The position numbers were made by a program, and so were the translations under genes. A stretch of DNA of 63,139 nt, taken from assembly GCA_023544645.1 (NCBI GenBank), contig JAMJFO010000013.1, positions 1 to 63,139 of the forward strand. Reading direction: 5' to 3'. The DNA comes from Desulfobulbaceae bacterium. Its GTDB lineage: Bacteria > Desulfobacterota > Desulfobulbia > Desulfobulbales > Desulfobulbaceae. Below are positions 3,337 through 42,007 of this stretch, piece by piece (position 1 is the first letter of the stretch; each line of letters starts with the position of its first letter). Under the pieces are notes generated by a model, which did no database searches, was not told the origin of the DNA, and was given only the letters and a program-made list of their open reading frames with translations.

Positions 3337-5241
3337 TTACTGTTTCATTACTTCCAGCGTGCCCTTGATGATTCCTGACACGTCCAGTCCGTGATTTTTC
3401 CATAAAATCTGCTGCGGGCCATGTTCGATAAAGGTGTTGCCGTATCCCAGCAGCCGTACCGGCACCTTGAGATGCACTTCGCACAGCAGCTGCAGAACGG
3501 CGCTGCCAAAACCTCCCTTCTTGACGTTGTCTTCAATGGTTACCACCCGGCCGGTTTTTTCCGCCCACTCGCAGATGAGTTCGTTGTCCAGGGGTTTGAT
3601 AAACCGGGGATTGATCACCGCGGCATCGATGCCCAGTTTTTTCAGGCCGTCGGCGGCGGCCAGGGCAGGATAGACCCTGTTGCCGACCGGGAGCAGGAGA
3701 ACGTCCCTGCCTTCGCGCAGCAGTTCTCCCCTGCCTATGGGAAGGCGCAGCAGGTCTTTGTCAAGCTCCACTCCTTCTCCCGAACCCCGGGGATACCGGA
3801 TCGCTGTCGGCCCGTTGTGGTAGACAGCGGTGTTGAGCATATGCTGCAACTCGTTTTCGTCTTTGGGGGCCATCAGTACGAGATTAGGAATGAAGCGGAG
3901 AAATGACAGGTCGAAAACGCCGTGGTGCGTCGGTCCGTCATCGCCGACCACGCCGCCTCGGTCGAGAGCAAGGGTCACCGGGAGGTCGGGCAGGCAGACA
4001 TCATGAATGATCTGGTCCAGGGCCCGCTGCATGAACGATGAATAGATGGCAACCACGGGGCGCATTCCCTCCATTGCCAGGCCGGCGGCAAAGGTGACCG
4101 CGTGCTGTTCGGCGATGCCGACATCAAAGAAGCGGTCCGGGAACTGCTGGCTGAATGATGTGAGACCGGTGCCCGCAGGCATTGCGGCTGTAATAGCGGT
4201 GACCCGGTCATTCTCCCGGGCCAGTTTGCACAGGGTGCTGCCGAAAACCTTGGTGTAGGAGATGTTGCCGATGGAAGGCAGTGGTTTGCCGTTGGCAATG
4301 GTAAAGGGCCCCACCCCATGATAATCGCCCGGGTTGTGTTCGGAAGGTGCGTATCCTTTGCCCTTGGTGGTTATGACATGGATGAGCACCGGTCCGTGAC
4401 GATTATCCCGGACATTCTGCAGGGTCTCGATCAACGAGTCCAGCTGGTGGCCGGGAATGGGGCCGATGTATTCAAATTTGAGCGCTTCAAAGAGCATGCC
4501 CGGGGTAAAAAATCCCTTGAGGCTTTCCTCGCTTTTCCGCAGGACATTGAGGATGTTCTCACCCACTGCGGATAGCGATTTCAAGCGTTCCTCAACATGC
4601 TTGCGCAGTCCGCTCATGGTCTTGCCGGTCAGCTTTCTGCTGAGAAAGCTGGACATGGCGCCGACATTGGGCGAGATCGACATTTCATTGTCATTGAGGA
4701 TAACGATCAGGTCCTTGTCCAGATCGCCGGCATGATTCAGTCCCTCAAAGGCGAGACCGGCGGTCATGGATCCGTCTCCAATGACGGCGATTACCCGATT
4801 GTTGTCTTTTTTCAGATCCTTGGCTGCTGCGATGCCAAGCCCGTAGGATATGGAGGTCGAACTGTGACCGGCCTCAACCACATCATATTCGCTCTCCGAG
4901 CGTTTGGGGAAGCCGCTGATGCCCTTATATTGACGCAGGGTGTGAAACTTGTCCCGCCGTCCTGTCAACAGTTTATGGGCATAGGACTGATGGCCGACAT
5001 CCCATATCAGTTTGTCATGCGGCGTGTCAAAGACATAGTGCAGGGCAATGGTCAACTCCACCACCCCGAGACTCGGAGCAAGGTGGCCGCCAGTGTTGGC
5101 CACGGTCTGGATGATTTTGGTCCTGATCTCGCCTGTAAGCTGGGTCAGCTGTTCAGGTTTGAGTCTGCGCAGGTCAGCCGGTGAATTGATGGCGTCGAGC
5201 AGTTCGGTCTGCTGATCCTGCAGCGCGTTGATCATAAGCAT
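3337..5241 (-). CDS. dxs: 1-deoxy-D-xylulose-5-phosphate synthase
   Basis: Thiamine-diphosphate enzyme that condenses pyruvate and glyceraldehyde 3-phosphate, the first step of the MEP isoprenoid pathway. The 634-residue product is full length. It shows [21 protein letters not shown] near the N-terminus, the ThDP/Mg motif GDGSMTAG...NDNEMSIS (about 155-190), and the transketolase-type pyrimidine domain with [15 protein letters not shown]. The C-terminal domain has [15 protein letters not shown]. The start is two bases after the ispA stop, so the two are probably translationally coupled. A second in-frame ATG lies two codons in. The order xseB-ispA-dxs is widely conserved in Gram-negative bacteria, which supports the call. 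Confidence 0.97.
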
Positions 5242-6473: not shown

Positions 6474-8252
6474 TTATCTTTTTTCCTCAAATCCCCAATA
6501 AGGATAGTCAAGACGATAATCTCCGATCTTGCCGGGACTTTGTTCCCTGCTCGCCACCAGCCACAGGCTGTTTGTTCTTTCGTCCATGGGCCCGGAATCA
6601 AAGGAGTTCCAGTCCGAAAGCAGGATCATGGCATTGTCGGCGGAATACTCGATATCTCCTGTGCCTTTAAAAGAACCCATGTGGGGCTGCGCGTCATACT
6701 GGTCATCCTTGCCCCGGGAAAGTTCGGAAATCACCAGAAATGAAACATTGAGCTCGTCGCGGATGGCTTCCAGCTGACGGAGCCAGGCGTCAATGCCGGT
6801 GCGGCGCTCAGACAGGTTCTGGAAGGGCAGTTTATGCAGGCTGTCAATGACGACCATGGTGTAATGATTTTTGGTCTCGTGCCGGAAAAAATCGATGTGC
6901 CGGCGCATGATGTCAGGGGTCAGTTTACGGTCGGTAACTACTTTGAACCAGGGCAGCAGCGCGCGCAGTTCATCCTTGGCTTTCTGCAGGCGTCCGGCAT
7001 GGTCCTGGTCCATGCTGCTGTTTTTTATCTGCTCCGCCGAAAGTCGGCTCAGCCGGCACAGGGTGCGCTGGTAGATCTTCTGGCGGCCGTTCTCGAAATC
7101 ATAATAAATAACCGGTATCCTGCGGCGGGCCATTTCTGTGGCGATCTGGATGAAGAAGCAGGATTTTCCTGCCTTGGGCGTGCCGCCGACGATATTTATG
7201 CCATGGATGCCGCCCAGGGCCTGGTCCAGCCGGGTAAATCCCGACTGCATGGTCCGGTAGGCATCACCGGACTCGTTCTGAAGCCTGTCGCGGAACTGCA
7301 GAAATTCCTTTTCCGGCGAGGCGAAAGGCGAAAAAGCCCTGGATTCCTTGATGAGCCGGAATGCAGTCTGTTGAAATTCCTTGCCAAGATCCGTGGATAA
7401 TCCGACCAGAGAGTAGTTTTTTTCCGTATGTTCAGGCCAGCGGATCAGGCGTGCCTTGAACCCGAGCCTGGTGGCCAGGCTGCGGGCGGCGCTTTGGGAT
7501 TCGTTGCTGTTGTTTGCCCACAGGAAGACTGTGGTGAGCCAGTTCAAGGCGGCAGCGTCAAGCCTTTCCAGATTTGCCGGGGAGGTAACGGCGATACCCG
7601 GGAGGCCGAGCTGCTTGATGGTAAGGAGATTATCTTCGTTTTCAACGACAAAAAGAGTGCCGTTTTCGCACCTTTCGATATCATTCATGTTATAGACCAT
7701 GTTCCGCTCAGCGACGAATTCCTCGTCCCCGAACCAGAAGCTGTCTTCGGGCCGGTCAGGATGAATGCAGCGGGCGTTGTAGCAATTGCCGTCATCTTCA
7801 ATATAGGGATAGACAAGGTAGCGGCCATTATAGCCGATCTTCATCTCCTGCAGCACTTCCCGGGAGATTTCCATCCTGCTGAAATGATCATACTGCTCCT
7901 CGGTCATCCGGTTCATGAAGCTCTGGATATCCGAATTTATATTTTTTACCGGATATTCGATGCCGGCTGAGGCATATTCACGGTCCGGGTCATATCCCGG
8001 CACATTCATCATGTTCAGGGCAAGGAGGCGGGCGAAATAGAGGGGGAAGCCGCCGGGCACGCAGCGGTTCTGGCAGCGGAAATAGCCGTGGAAAAAGGTG
8101 TCGGGGTTAAGGAAGACAATGAGCCGGCCCGGGCCGGCCGTTTTTTTTCTCGCGCACAAGGGACAGGGAGCTTGAAGAATGTTGTTTTTCAGTTCGCCGT
8201 CTGGTAATTGATTGGTATAGAATGCGGTAATAGCGTCCATTTTACTCATCAC
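6474..8252 (-). CDS. Twinkle-like primase-helicase with DnaB-type ATPase and degenerate TOPRIM
   Basis: The product resembles phage T7 gp4 and mitochondrial Twinkle: an N-terminal zinc site (CPLCARKK, then CQNRC), a TOPRIM-like domain (about 200-290), and a C-terminal RecA/DnaB helicase domain. The helicase part has Walker A GTPKAGKS near residue 355, Walker B MVVIDSLHKL, and a DnaB-like end motif HMGSFKGTGDIEYSAD. The TOPRIM domain looks impaired: the expected glycine after the first glutamate is Asn (VVENED), and the DxD region reads FLWANNSNE. Helicase activity seems likely and primer synthesis doubtful. The start is GTG 8252 or ATG 8249, after AAGGAG. It is divergent from the HerA-like gene. 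It may be an old phage gene or a repair helicase; its chromosomal role is unknown. Confidence 0.75.
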   Translation of the reverse strand: MMSKMDAITAFYTNQLPDGELKNNILQAPCPLCARKKTAGPGRLIVFLNPDTFFHGYFRCQNRCVPGGFPLYFARLLALNMMNVPGYDPDREYASAGIEYPVKNINSDIQSFMNRMTEEQYDHFSRMEISREVLQEMKIGYNGRYLVYPYIEDDGNCYNARCIHPDRPEDSFWFGDEEFVAERNMVYNMNDIERCENGTLFVVENEDNLLTIKQLGLPGIAVTSPANLERLDAAALNWLTTVFLWANNSNESQSAARSLATRLGFKARLIRWPEHTEKNYSLVGLSTDLGKEFQQTAFRLIKESRAFSPFASPEKEFLQFRDRLQNESGDAYRTMQSGFTRLDQALGGIHGINIVGGTPKAGKSCFFIQIATEMARRRIPVIYYDFENGRQKIYQRTLCRLSRLSAEQIKNSSMDQDHAGRLQKAKDELRALLPWFKVVTDRKLTPDIMRRHIDFFRHETKNHYTMVVIDSLHKLPFQNLSERRTGIDAWLRQLEAIRDELNVSFLVISELSRGKDDQYDAQPHMGSFKGTGDIEYSADNAMILLSDWNSFDSGPMDERTNSLWLVASREQSPGKIGDYRLDYPYWGFEEKR

Positions 8253-8349
8253 GTTTTCTCTGCTCCTTGGCAAATATATAACATCATGTATCTATTGAAG
8301 CAGAAAGCGGTAAAGTGTTCAATGAAATTGCATGATGGTGGAGGTTATC

Positions 8350-10752
8350 ATGGGTGATTCTTTAGCATATGAAAAAATGGATCTTTTTTACCTGGGCCGG
8401 GAAATTGACCGCCGGACCGGCAAGACCTCGATGCTGCCGCTGTTGTACAAAAACAGGCATCTCACCACCCATGCCGCCATTATCGGCATGACCGGCAGCG
8501 GCAAGACCGGGCTGGGGGTCTGCCTCCTTGAAGAGGCGGCAATGGACAGGCTTCCGGCAATAGTGATTGACCCCAAAGGAGACATGGGTAATCTCCTGCT
8601 CTCTTTCCCTGAAATGCTGCCTGAGGATTTTCTGCCATGGGTCGATGGCATCAAGGCCGAGCAGCAGGGGGTAAGTCGTGAGGACCTGGCACGCGAAACG
8701 GCAGCGACCTGGAAAAAAGGAATTGAATCCTGGGATCAGAGCAGCGACAGGATTCAACGCCTCAGGTCTTCCACCGAGCTTGCCGTCTACACACCCGGGG
8801 CGGAATCTGGCCGTCCGGTATCGGTGCTTGACACCCTGGAGGCGCCGGATCCGGGAGTCATGGAAGATAATGATACGGCAGCCGGCCTGGTCGGCTCAAC
8901 AGTATCCTCGATCCTCGGCCTGATAGGAGTCCAGGCTGATCCGCTCAAAAGCAGAGAGCATATCCTGCTGTCATCGATACTCCTCCATCACTGGCAGGAA
9001 GGGACTGACCTGAGCCTGGAAACCCTGATCGCCTCGGTGGTTAATCCTCCCTTTGAGCGGATCGGCGTTTTCGGGCTGGAAAGTTTCTATCCCCAGACAA
9101 AGCGGATGGATCTGGCCATGCAGCTCAACAATATTCTGGCCAGCCCCGCATTCAGCGGATGGACCAGGGGAGAGCCTCTCCGGATTGAAGATCTTCTGTA
9201 TGACGCCGACGGCCGGCCCCGGATCTCCATTTTCTCCATTGCCCACCTCAGCGAACCTGAAAGGATGTTTTTTGTAACCATGCTGCTGGGTCGACTGGTC
9301 AGCTGGATGCGCAAGCAGGAAGGCAGCACGGGCCTCAGGTGTCTGCTCTACATGGATGAGATATTCGGTTATTTTCCGCCCCTGGGCAACCCGCCATCCA
9401 AGAAGCCCATGCTCATGCTGCTCAAGCAGGCCAGGGCTTATGGCCTCGGGGTTGTTCTGGCCACCCAGAATCCTGTTGATCTTGATTACAAGGGTTTATC
9501 GAATATCGGCACCTGGTTCATCGGCCGCCTGCAGACCAGGCAGGATCAGGACCGTGTTCTGCAGGGAATCGCGGCAGGTTCCACTGCCGGGGAAAAAGAA
9601 GAGGTTCGCGCTTTGCTGGCCAACATGCGCGGCCGCACCTTCCTGATGTATTCCGCCCATATTGATGAGCCGGTGCTCTTTGAAACACGCTGGGTGATGT
9701 CCTATCTCAAGGGGCCTATCTCCCTGGCCGAGGTGAGCCGGCTTCCCGGCGTCGCTCTGGCCGAACAGCCCGGCAGCGAGCAGCCTGTTCCGGTACGGAA
9801 AACCGGTACGGCAGATGTCGGCCTGCAGGCAACGCCTCCTCTTCTGTCCGATAGCATACCGCAGTGTTTTGTGCCGCTGGCCATTTCCGCGGAAGAATTG
9901 TCATTTGCCCCCTGGCTGGCCGGGAGAGCCAAAGTACGATTCCATAACCAGGCCAGGGGCATCGATCGAACCGATGATATCAGTCTGCGGCTTGCCCTGG
10001 ATGATTCTTTTTCCGGTTTTGACTGGAGCCGATCCGTTGCCAACCAGGTACAGGCTGAAGAAACCCTGAAAACGCCGCCGCCTTCGGCCCGGTTCAGGAC
10101 TCTGCCCGCGATGCTTGGGCAATTGAACAACCTGCGTGAAGCGGAAAAAAGGATCAATGATTACCTGTATCACACCATGCGGATTTCGCTGTGGCGGGTG
10201 CCCGCCTTAAAGCTTGAATCACAGCCGGAGGAGACGGAGAACCGGTTCCGCCAACGGGTTGTCGATTCACTGCGGGAGAAGAAGGAGGCGGCCATGCATA
10301 CCCTTGAGGAGCGTTATCGTTCCAAGGAGGATATGCTTGAGCGGCGCCTGGCAAAAGTCTATGAGCGGATTGAAAAAGAAAAAGGTGATGTCAAGGCCAG
10401 GGGACTGGATACAGCCCTGTCCTTCGGCATTGCTGTTGTCGGCGCCCTGTTCGGCCGCAAGGCCCTGTCTGTTTCTACCGCTTCCCGATCGGCCCAGGGA
10501 ATGCGCAACGCCGGACGAATGGCCAAGGAGAAGGGAGATGTGGACAGAGCCGTCGATGAAGCTGAGCGGATCCAGAGCGAGATCGCTGCCCTGGCCCGTG
10601 AGTTTCAGGAAAAAGCGGCAGCGGTGTCCAGCCGGTATGCGCAGGAAAATTACCCTCTGGAGGTATTCTCCATCGGTCCGAAACGCAACGGTATCTTTGA
10701 CGTCCAAGTCTGTATACAATGGGAGCCGGAGCTCGATCTGCCGCCATTGTAG
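8350..10752 (+). CDS. HerA-like / DUF87-type ATPase with C-terminal coiled coil
   Basis: A large P-loop ATPase of the HerA-FtsK group, which typically forms hexamers that move DNA. Walker A is GMTGSGKTG near residue 46, followed by the HerA-like strand AIVIDPKGDMGNLL. Walker B is LYMDEIFGYFPP near residue 332, and a sensor-type motif ATQNPVDLDYKGLSNIGTW follows, as in other HerA/DUF853 proteins. Residues from about 600 are charged and helical (REKKEAAMHTLEERYRSKED), consistent with a coiled coil. The start is ATG 8350, where GGTGGAGG lies at good spacing; ATG 8332 is possible. It is divergent from the primase-helicase gene. No NurA nuclease is adjacent, so a classic HerA-NurA resection pair is not shown. 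It could act in repair, defence or plasmid-like maintenance. Confidence 0.75.
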   Translation: MGDSLAYEKMDLFYLGREIDRRTGKTSMLPLLYKNRHLTTHAAIIGMTGSGKTGLGVCLLEEAAMDRLPAIVIDPKGDMGNLLLSFPEMLPEDFLPWVDGIKAEQQGVSREDLARETAATWKKGIESWDQSSDRIQRLRSSTELAVYTPGAESGRPVSVLDTLEAPDPGVMEDNDTAAGLVGSTVSSILGLIGVQADPLKSREHILLSSILLHHWQEGTDLSLETLIASVVNPPFERIGVFGLESFYPQTKRMDLAMQLNNILASPAFSGWTRGEPLRIEDLLYDADGRPRISIFSIAHLSEPERMFFVTMLLGRLVSWMRKQEGSTGLRCLLYMDEIFGYFPPLGNPPSKKPMLMLLKQARAYGLGVVLATQNPVDLDYKGLSNIGTWFIGRLQTRQDQDRVLQGIAAGSTAGEKEEVRALLANMRGRTFLMYSAHIDEPVLFETRWVMSYLKGPISLAEVSRLPGVALAEQPGSEQPVPVRKTGTADVGLQATPPLLSDSIPQCFVPLAISAEELSFAPWLAGRAKVRFHNQARGIDRTDDISLRLALDDSFSGFDWSRSVANQVQAEETLKTPPPSARFRTLPAMLGQLNNLREAEKRINDYLYHTMRISLWRVPALKLESQPEETENRFRQRVVDSLREKKEAAMHTLEERYRSKEDMLERRLAKVYERIEKEKGDVKARGLDTALSFGIAVVGALFGRKALSVSTASRSAQGMRNAGRMAKEKGDVDRAVDEAERIQSEIAALAREFQEKAAAVSSRYAQENYPLEVFSIGPKRNGIFDVQVCIQWEPELDLPPL

Positions 10753-10767
10753 TGACCGGCATTGAAA

Positions 10768-12180
10768 TTATACTCCCATGATCACCTGCAGGGCCTGGCG
10801 GTCAAGCTCACTGGTGAATTTGACATGGACCGAGTAGTCGCTGACAATCAGGTCAACGTTCTGCACGCCGATGACTGTGCCGCGGAGAATTTTATCCGGC
10901 AGCCCGTTGACCGGTATGCCGGCCTTGATGCTGCGGCCGAGAAGAAGGCGGCTGTTTTCCTTTTTGGTGATGCGGATAATGAAGGAGTAGCCGCCCAGTG
11001 AGATATCGGTCATTTCTCCCCGGAAGCTGCTGAGCACCCTGTCCCGGTCATCAACCACCTGCAGTTGAATGCGGCGTTCAAGTTTGTGTCGGTCATGAAC
11101 CCTGCGGTCCATGCCCTTGAGTTCAAGCATTTTGTGGATGTCGCTTGAGCGGCCGTAATAATCCCTGAGCTTGGATTCTATTCCGGGATTTTGCTTTTCG
11201 AGCTCCGTGAGTTTTTCCCGTTTCAGCGCCAGGATTTTCGTCAGCTGCATGGCGGTCAGGGACACGGTCCATACCGAGGCGTTGAAAAAGTTTTCCCCGG
11301 CAATCTGCCCGGTGTTCAGATTCTTCAGGAACAGTTCCTTTTCGCCGCCCATGTAGGATACGCGCACGCTGCCCATGTTGATGAAAAAGAGTTCATCGTT
11401 TCGCGCGCCCTGGGTGACAATGGCCTCCTCGGGTTTGTAGGTTCGTTCCTCCATGGAGTAGTACAGGGCGTTGAATTCATCAAAGGTGAGGGCGTTGCGC
11501 AGTTTTGACCAGACTTCCAGGTCATCCTCGCTGATTGCCTCGCTCTTTTCCTGGTCGATGATTTCCCCGGACTGGATGATTTCCATCAGGGCCATGGGGT
11601 CAATTTCATATATACGTTCTCGCAGCCGCTCGGCGTTGGCAAAATCTTTTTTTCTCGCGCAGGAGACAACCAGGTCGTAGAGCTGTTTTTTGGCAACTTC
11701 CGTGTTGCCGGCCTCGGCGAGCTGAAAGATCTGTTGTTCCCTGATGGCCAGGGGGGTCTTAGGAGCGGGGTCTTGGGAGGGAGCAGCGGGTTGGCCGCCG
11801 GAGCGGCCGGAATCGATTCTGCTGAGCAGGGTTTTGGCCCCGGAGCGGATTTCTTCCCTGTATACCGGACTGTCGACAATGGTTTTCAGGCCGGAAGTGA
11901 TTTTTTCGAGCCGCTGCCAGTGGCGGGCATCAGCAAGCATTGTCGCTGTTGCGATGAAACAGGTTGCGGCCGCCGGCCGGAGTTGTTTGTCAAACGCCCG
12001 CGAAGCCACTGATATCTGGGCAAGCAGGGCATCGACAGCCGGCAGTTTCTGATTCTCTGCCAGGCGCATAATCGTTGCCGGCAGGATTTTTGTTACGGCT
12101 GGATCAAGCAGAACGTCATGTTGTCCTTTGGCAAGGCTGTTGAGGGCTTCCTGCAGCCCGCTGAGTTGCTGTTGTCCCAA
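10768..12180 (-). CDS. Cyclic nucleotide-binding domain plus PilZ domain protein
   Basis: A probable two-signal receptor. The first 200 residues are helical and include a low-complexity linker (QPAAPSQDPAPK). A cyclic nucleotide-binding fold follows (about 225-325): FDEFNALYYSMEERTYKPEEAIVTQG, then IAGENFF in the phosphate-cassette position. The C-terminus is a PilZ domain (about 345-465) with an arginine-rich RRVHDRHKLERR motif and DISLGGY, the c-di-GMP-binding pair. The start is TTG 12180 with GGAGG five bases upstream; no closer ATG exists. It stands alone, convergent with the HerA-like gene. Ligands are inferred from family; the CNB part may bind cAMP, another nucleotide, or nothing. Confidence 0.8.
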   Translation of the reverse strand: MGQQQLSGLQEALNSLAKGQHDVLLDPAVTKILPATIMRLAENQKLPAVDALLAQISVASRAFDKQLRPAAATCFIATATMLADARHWQRLEKITSGLKTIVDSPVYREEIRSGAKTLLSRIDSGRSGGQPAAPSQDPAPKTPLAIREQQIFQLAEAGNTEVAKKQLYDLVVSCARKKDFANAERLRERIYEIDPMALMEIIQSGEIIDQEKSEAISEDDLEVWSKLRNALTFDEFNALYYSMEERTYKPEEAIVTQGARNDELFFINMGSVRVSYMGGEKELFLKNLNTGQIAGENFFNASVWTVSLTAMQLTKILALKREKLTELEKQNPGIESKLRDYYGRSSDIHKMLELKGMDRRVHDRHKLERRIQLQVVDDRDRVLSSFRGEMTDISLGGYSFIIRITKKENSRLLLGRSIKAGIPVNGLPDKILRGTVIGVQNVDLIVSDYSVHVKFTSELDRQALQVIMGV

Positions 12181-41928: not shown

Positions 41929-42007
41929 AATTTTTTATCGATGCTGCGCTGAGTGATCAACTGGATTTGACAGTTCATACAGGATGACAACAGAAAAGGA
42001 GAACACC

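Follow-up and report, generated by a model that had tools for sequence, protein, structure and literature searches.

Introduction

Why animal Twinkle retains a primase half that does not prime is an old question. A locus of a Desulfobulbaceae bacterium raises it again for bacteria: here a gene for a DnaB-type helicase with a primase-like N-terminal half of altered metal site lies back to back with a gene for a HerA-like ATPase, and it may be asked whether the primase half can still make primers, what it is kept for if it cannot, and whether the two motors belong together. The window, that is, the whole stretch of DNA analysed (63,139 nucleotides of contig JAMJFO010000013.1, assembly GCA_023544645.1), derives from a 3.85-Mb draft genome of 153 contigs with a completeness of 99.92%. 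A preliminary description of the window compared the helicase with animal Twinkle and proposed that the two DNA motors may form a repair, replication-restart, or defence unit. By alignments, profile searches, and structure prediction the observation, first made on a single gene, is extended to a helicase family carried by a group of sulfur-cycling bacteria, including the cable bacteria. A search of the open-access PMC literature found no paper on this helicase family.

The Locus and Its Source Genome

The features of the locus are collected in Table 1. The two open reading frames (ORFs) stand back to back about 100 bp apart, just as had been described, with exactly 100 bp between the divergent start codons ATG 8249 and ATG 8350. 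At full extent the helicase ORF occupies 6474–8273 on the reverse strand (599 aa) and is readable from TTG 8273, from which helicase residues are numbered throughout; ATG 8249 is the likelier start, judging by its place near the beginning of the family alignment. The HerA-like ORF at full extent occupies 8332–10752 on the forward strand (806 aa), and ATG 8350, preceded by GGTGGAGG, seems the likelier start there. Farther out, the locus is flanked at one end by Maf, TruA, and ArgC and at the opposite end by XseB, polyprenyl synthetase, and Dxs. The same genome also encodes a separate RadA and a separate DnaB, the gene of the latter following one that resembles rplI. In the Rfam search a tRNA was the sole match. 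Between positions 42000 and 52000 the G+C content climbs to 58–64% in comparison with ~54% elsewhere in the window.

Table 1. Features of the helicase locus (positions in the window; residues counted from TTG 8273).
Feature	Position	Strand	Remarks
Helicase with pseudo-primase N-terminal half	6474..8249	-	591 aa from ATG 8249; ORF search and Pfam
DnaB-type RecA motor	6477..7283	-	Residues 331–599; DnaB_C match, conservation, structural alignment
TOPRIM-like domain without metal site	7434..7673	-	Residues 201–280; E211, N215, N254-N255-S256
Zinc-binding region	8046..8174	-	Residues 34–76; C37, C40, C67, C71
36-bp element TATTGAAGCAGAAAGCGGTAAAGTGTTCAATGAAAT	8293..8328	+	Upstream of HerA; pattern TATTSAAKCAGAAA-N11-TTCAATRAAAT
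HerA-like (DUF87) ATPase	8350..10752	+	C-terminal coiled coil interrupted by hydrophobic Gly/Ala-rich stretch; optional neighbour
cNMP-binding and PilZ domain protein	10768..12180	-	Pfam; helicase's strand, beyond HerA

Architecture of the Helicase and Its Motor Half

In the helicase a Cys4 zinc region comes first from the N-terminus, an RNA-polymerase-type and TOPRIM-like region follows, and the C-terminal part is a DnaB_C motor. In Pfam the motor was recognised at 7.1e-29, and Toprim_3 gave a sub-threshold match of 16.6 bits against a cut-off of 27.2. The motor contains Walker A (residues 363–371), the catalytic-type glutamate E394, Walker B ending at D477, the sensor SEL (516–518), and the arginine finger-type R576. 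Walker A (GGxPKxGKS), YYDFEN, DSLHKL, SEL, and the finger motif SRE show little or no variation across the family alignments, and an intact helicase half, first described for the single protein, is thus found family-wide. Two changes set the motor apart: the Lys which stands before the arginine finger in T7 gp4 and in the control proteins is gone (LKNR to VASR), and the sensor is SEL where DnaB has SQL; because of them strong unwinding by the helicase is not guaranteed. In one genome (G140) a second, motor-only copy with 59% identity to the window's helicase was observed two genes 3' of the full-length gene (L059:6647–7336 = L208:7624–8313).

The AlphaFold model of the helicase had a mean pLDDT of 85.4 and a pTM of 0.63. 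In the full-length Foldseek comparison T7 gp4 came first (~500 columns, 8.5e-22), followed by human Twinkle (6.1e-18) and DnaB (1.0e-17), and in VIA-align comparison of the RecA core DnaB and G40P reached Z ~30, T7 gp4 ~26, and Twinkle ~24, with superposition on DnaB over ~255 residues at 2.1–2.6 Å. When the family profile was searched against PDB, DnaB was found, RadA was found weakly, and T7 gp4 and Twinkle were absent at E up to 0.1; directly compared with T7 gp4, the profile gave a weak alignment (0.0026). By hhalign the family was aligned end to end with pSMQ308 (E 3.6e-18, columns 20–547) and, starting before the TOPRIM domain, with phage scaffold MT839351 (E 1.3e-17), and PHROG 239 matched residues 21–551 of the helicase at 7e-26.

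In the RecA-domain tree the helicase family forms one clade (100/100) on a long stem. The tree contains no Twinkle row and gives no resolution of the family relative to DnaB, the mobile-element primase-helicases, and T7 gp4 (end branch 9.9); the RadA of L250 was dropped from it, as no Walker motif was found in the ORF, which leaves one RadA row, and the other domains were cut by a Walker-based rule. In accordance with the Foldseek result and the lost metal site, the family resembles Twinkle in its architecture and in the type of loss, so that the suggested likeness holds for these features rather than for demonstrated kinship. Likely the family descends from a mobile-element primase-helicase. 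Origin via a close phage relative was also considered and rejected, as no such relative occurs in IMG/VR, phage, or plasmid records: the IMG/VR scan returned 47 pattern matches and no relative of the helicase family, none of the 180 phage records with a match covered 80% of the query, and of the 120 plasmid records with a match two did so, at 22% identity.

Loss of the Primase Metal Site

In the window's helicase EGxxD of the primase metal site is changed to ENEDN and DxD is changed to NNS. The loss of acidic residues had been deduced from the motifs VVENED and FLWANNSNE; these read as quoted and DxD is lost indeed, but the first Glu (E211) is actually kept. Two alignments were used, one with the window and 69 loci of the order sample, from which rows with <400 aligned residues (G031, G127) were left out, and another of 125 rows from two collections, for which 154 ORFs were reduced to 124 by dropping those of length <400 or with identical last 300 residues. 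The zinc cysteines, noticed as kept in the window's protein, proved to be kept in the family as well, Cys 37, 67, and 71 in all 125 rows and Cys 40 in 124.

The metal site gave the opposite picture. At position 211, the first Glu of EGxxD, Glu is found in 102 of the 125 rows, Gln in 14, Asp in 6, Val in 2, and Thr in 1, while four residues further, at position 215, the Asp of EGxxD is replaced by Asn (114 rows), Ser (7), or Thr (4). Asp at both DxD positions (254 and 256) does not occur in any row; a single Asp is present at position 254 in 8 rows and at position 256 in one (L245). Six active-type controls, namely, T7 gp4, plasmids pSMQ308, pJBL2, and pSTERM02, phage SsuFJZZ32, and phage scaffold MT839351, were treated by the same alignment method and kept Glu, Asp, and DxD in 6/6, although to our knowledge priming tests exist for T7 gp4 alone among them. 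Since both Asp residues are present in none of the 125 relatives and in all six controls, the DxD loss is neither a sequencing error nor chance. The Arg matching R84 of T7 gp4 is likewise present in 6/6 controls versus 6 of 125 family rows. No functional TOPRIM site was thus found, the metal site being gone both in the window's sequence and in the family, and on the evidence of these alignments the primase site is disabled in the whole helicase family, with the zinc site and the motor motifs conserved.

The locus L245 (G193, family f40, outside the class) is the most distant full-length member; its DxD site retains one Asp (FRND), Cys 40 is missing, and it may possibly represent an intermediate.

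The residues C202, G205, E213, L216, L217, G223, P225, A267, G271, K273, R275, and W279 of the TOPRIM-like region are near-invariant, and in entropy this region (1.41 bits) differs little from the zinc (1.55) and polymerase (1.59) regions, with position 254 standing out at 2.61. In six close pairs dN/dS was 0.09–0.22 for the N-terminal half and 0.08–0.26 for RecA, as estimated by simple Nei-Gojobori counts, in which TOPRIM alone comprises 80 codons. Low dN/dS together with such entropy values indicates that the dead N-terminal half is maintained by purifying selection, and the invariant E213, G271, K273, R275, and W279 may constitute its new working surface.

Distribution of the Helicase

The helicase was detected in 72 of 146 Desulfobulbales genomes, in 71 of them at E below 1e-100 and in G127 as a contig-edge fragment. 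The carriers include 25 of 27 genomes of f1, the family to which the window belongs, and 26 of 28 genomes of family f12. Being absent from the other 74 genomes, it is not essential to the order. By profile search it was present in 77 of 115 genomes of the class and in 12 of 297 genomes of the phylum sample, five of these 12 lying outside the class, and the named relatives belong to Desulfobulbaceae, Desulfocapsaceae, and the cable bacteria (Candidatus Electrothrix). The helicase is a stably inherited chromosomal gene beside a normal DnaB, rare outside the class. In the RecA tree L071 (G065, family f6 of the order) and L240 (G200, family f47 outside the class) are near-identical branches (support 99/97), and since these branches are very short, some transfer of the helicase across classes, probably recent, is indicated.

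The HerA-Like Neighbour

The HerA-type identity of the neighbour with its long coiled coil, already recognised in the preliminary description, agrees with the Pfam matches to DUF87 and HerA_C. The fold matches to HerA and the DndH C-domain (E ~1e-7) give support only, because the predicted structure reached just modest confidence (mean pLDDT 72.6, the ATPase core in part ~50–65). The HerA NCBIfam scores are all far below cut-off. The reported lack of NurA was also upheld: PF09376 had no match in the window's genome, and the control gave matches in 7 of 14 genomes.

At 152 loci, some genomes being represented twice, the immediate upstream neighbour of the helicase was a divergent HerA gene in 17 cases. 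In about half of the loci (75) this place belongs to a same-strand cNMP/PilZ gene, and where HerA occurs its position is between the PilZ gene and the helicase. A directed search found the divergent HerA-helicase pair in 16 of 80 named loci. Of the 72 helicase carriers in the order, four (G000, G078, G127, G144) have HerA right next to the helicase, and a full-length HerA gene is present in 14 of 146 genomes, being adjacent in these four, located at another locus in seven, without a junction to the helicase visible on the contig in G040 and G048, and unaccompanied by any helicase in G063. Mapped on a 53-helicase tree, the adjacency of HerA requires six changes, where seven loci with an unseen upstream gene are uncounted, including L163, which shows the first HerA codons at the contig end; 16 of the 17 HerA-adjacent rows belong to a single group of 28, in which HerA-less rows, for example, those of cable bacteria, are found as well. 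At L138 (G124, ~4052–5140) the HerA-like gene lies in several pieces and is likely a recent pseudogene. According to these data the HerA-helicase pairing is genuine and is inherited within part of one family; HerA was apparently lost repeatedly while the helicase stays. As adjacency is sparse and HerA is often unlinked or missing, the helicase does without it.

Within the window's genome the 36-bp intergenic element (Table 1) has a single occurrence at up to 3 mismatches. Its TTSAAK and TTCAAT parts are spaced by 17 bp and resemble -35 and -10 hexamers, making the element a candidate promoter or operator of HerA. With ≤3 substitutions the pattern is found in 17 of 18 HerA-helicase intergenic regions of varying length, L153 being the exception, and L152 and L156 are the only HerA-less helicase loci that retain it; its presence thus follows that of HerA.

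The neighbourhood of the helicase offers no pathway clue. No defence genes were recognised among the recurrent neighbours at the 152 loci, and the window neighbours are housekeeping genes. No Sir2, DUF4297, or other effector was recognised next to HerA, whose neighbours are the helicase and the cNMP/PilZ protein, and at ten unlinked HerA loci no recurrent partner or effector was seen. In PADLOC there were only generic HerA matches, and for the helicase nothing beyond mad8 at 4e-4.

These results bear on the idea that the helicase and the HerA-like ATPase constitute one repair, restart, or defence unit. In favour of it are the divergent arrangement in the window and in a fifth of the named loci, the intergenic element conserved in nearly every pair, and the survival of this element in the two loci that have no HerA; but the partners are adjacent in only 4 of 72 helicase genomes, HerA is unlinked in 7 and deprived of the helicase in 1 of its 14 genomes, adjacency is repeatedly altered on the helicase tree, recurrent defence neighbours and a helicase match in PADLOC other than the weak mad8 are lacking, and NurA is missing from the genome. 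The gene-neighbourhood survey recommended for the pair was thus carried out and showed that the two genes are not conserved together across the order. The two-motor unit in its stated form is rejected on the order survey, the 80 named loci, and the adjacency tree, HerA having turned out an optional neighbour, and any joint unit of the two proteins is regarded as very unlikely.

Proposed Function and Alternative Explanations

Probably the protein is a ring-type (SF4) DNA helicase of phage/plasmid primase-helicase build, the non-catalytic primase half of which is kept for DNA handling and ring stabilising. Its primer-making capacity would have been lost, and the primase half would have been retained as a DNA-handling, ring-stabilising domain. 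The helicase would form a hexamer on single-stranded DNA, with the zinc and TOPRIM-like half gripping DNA behind the ring after the "doorstop" model, which PMC9860392 proposes for the N-terminal domain of human Twinkle; according to the same paper this domain has lost primase activity but binds ssDNA, makes oligomers more stable, and aids processive unwinding. In T7 gp4, as stated in PMC9198812, the primase domain affects DNA binding by the helicase, and its residue R84 is needed for helicase activity and ssDNA binding. Since the R84 position is not kept in the family, DNA gripping would need other residues. In the cell the protein could serve as an accessory helicase, either for restarting replication or in recombination, and the HerA-like neighbour would be an independently transcribed insertion rather than a partner.

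Other explanations concern each half of the protein. A primase that still works through a remodelled metal site, made up for instance of E211, E213, and E258 with a changed third ligand, might be imagined from the conservation of Glu at position 213 (125/125), 258 (116/125), and 211 (102/125), but position 211 is taken by Gln, Val, or Thr in 17 rows, position 254 accepts at least 9 residue types, in line with its high entropy, and the R84-type Arg is lost, which, on the assumption that an ordinary DnaG is present as well, makes such an enzyme extremely improbable. It is somewhat easier to imagine that the ring is an ATP-dependent DNA clamp, adaptor, or signalling ATPase and not an unwinding motor, as the finger and sensor changes described above are fixed in the family; nevertheless this is quite unlikely, given that the family still has Walker A, the catalytic Glu, Walker B, and the arginine finger and that the RecA core superposes on DnaB as stated above.

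The role of RadA (Sms), described as a D-loop helicase in PMC5512693, deserves separate consideration. Here the helicase would extend D-loops with RecA, usually in parallel to RadA and alone where RadA is gone. Genus g24 (family f4) lacks RadA in all 9 genomes (G017, G027, G044, G051, G058, G069, G075, G081, G086; TIGR00416 missing, no more than partial Lon- or RecA-like matches remaining), and 8 of them carry the helicase, the ninth being 63% complete, while in its sister genera g12, g34, and g43 RadA is present and the helicase absent (3/3), and a Cys4 zinc site with a DnaB-type motor is common to both proteins. However, this is one switch on one branch, and chance may therefore account for the g24 pattern, which is only a hint at a pathway. 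In addition most helicase genomes (63 of 72) are among the 132 genomes with RadA, and the helicase has no Lon-like domain and scores 25.5 bits against the TIGR00416 cut-off of 403, so that a RadA role is considered unlikely. RadA replacement as a general rule was rejected, as the RadA-less genomes outside g24 (G133, G025, G029, G117, G138) are scattered; for the RadA-less members of g3, g22, g25, g33, and g38 assembly gaps are likely because congeneric genomes have RadA.

To return to the preferred reading of an accessory ring helicase with a non-catalytic primase half, an extended version of it can be formulated: a mobile-element primase-helicase was domesticated, ceased to prime, and became an independent, order-wide counterpart of animal Twinkle, using the zinc finger and the primase fold as a DNA grip and serving as an accessory recombination or fork-restart helicase able to replace RadA, as in g24. 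In this complete form it is doubtful, though conceivable.

Comparison with Known Systems

A bacterial family with the same chemistry lost, apparently independently, provides a second and genetically simpler case beside Twinkle. The kept zinc site and the purifying selection suggest that the primase fold has a non-catalytic role common to both, for testing of which cultured Desulfobulbus could serve; Desulfobulbus elongatus DSM 2908 carries the gene at locus L169. Also, the genes counted for replication and recombination in Desulfobulbales, the cable bacteria among them, now include a second DnaB-type helicase.

With the HerA family (HerA-NurA, Sir2-HerA, DUF4297-HerA) the window's HerA-like protein shares the DUF87 ATPase and the fold matches to HerA and the DndH C-domain, but it differs in having no NurA in the genome and no recognised Sir2 or DUF4297 neighbour, and in a long coiled coil at the C-terminus that is broken by a hydrophobic stretch. 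RadA resembles the helicase by a zinc site and a DnaB-type motor, whereas the helicase has a TOPRIM-like domain instead of a Lon-like one, and its TIGR00416 match is restricted to residues 340–410. For the motor DnaB is the best sequence and structure match by its RecA core; nevertheless, the helicase has no DnaB_N match, carrying the zinc and TOPRIM-like half instead, and scores 94 of the 385 bits required by the equivalog cut-off.

The phage/plasmid primase-helicases (T7 gp4, PHROG 239, pSMQ308-type) combine, like the family, a zinc finger, an RNA-polymerase domain, and DnaB_C in one chain, but they keep EGxxD, DxD, and the R84-type Arg, which are lost in the family, and identity to them is ~22–23%. 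Finally, animal Twinkle shares with the family a primase-derived N-terminal half joined to an SF4 motor, a mutated TOPRIM metal site, and a full-length fold match. Unlike the bacterial family, which keeps the Cys4 zinc site, human Twinkle has its zinc-binding domain mutated as well, according to PMC9860392; the bacterial helicase, in turn, is chromosomal beside DnaB, and its RecA core is nearer to DnaB (Z ~30) than to Twinkle (Z 24).
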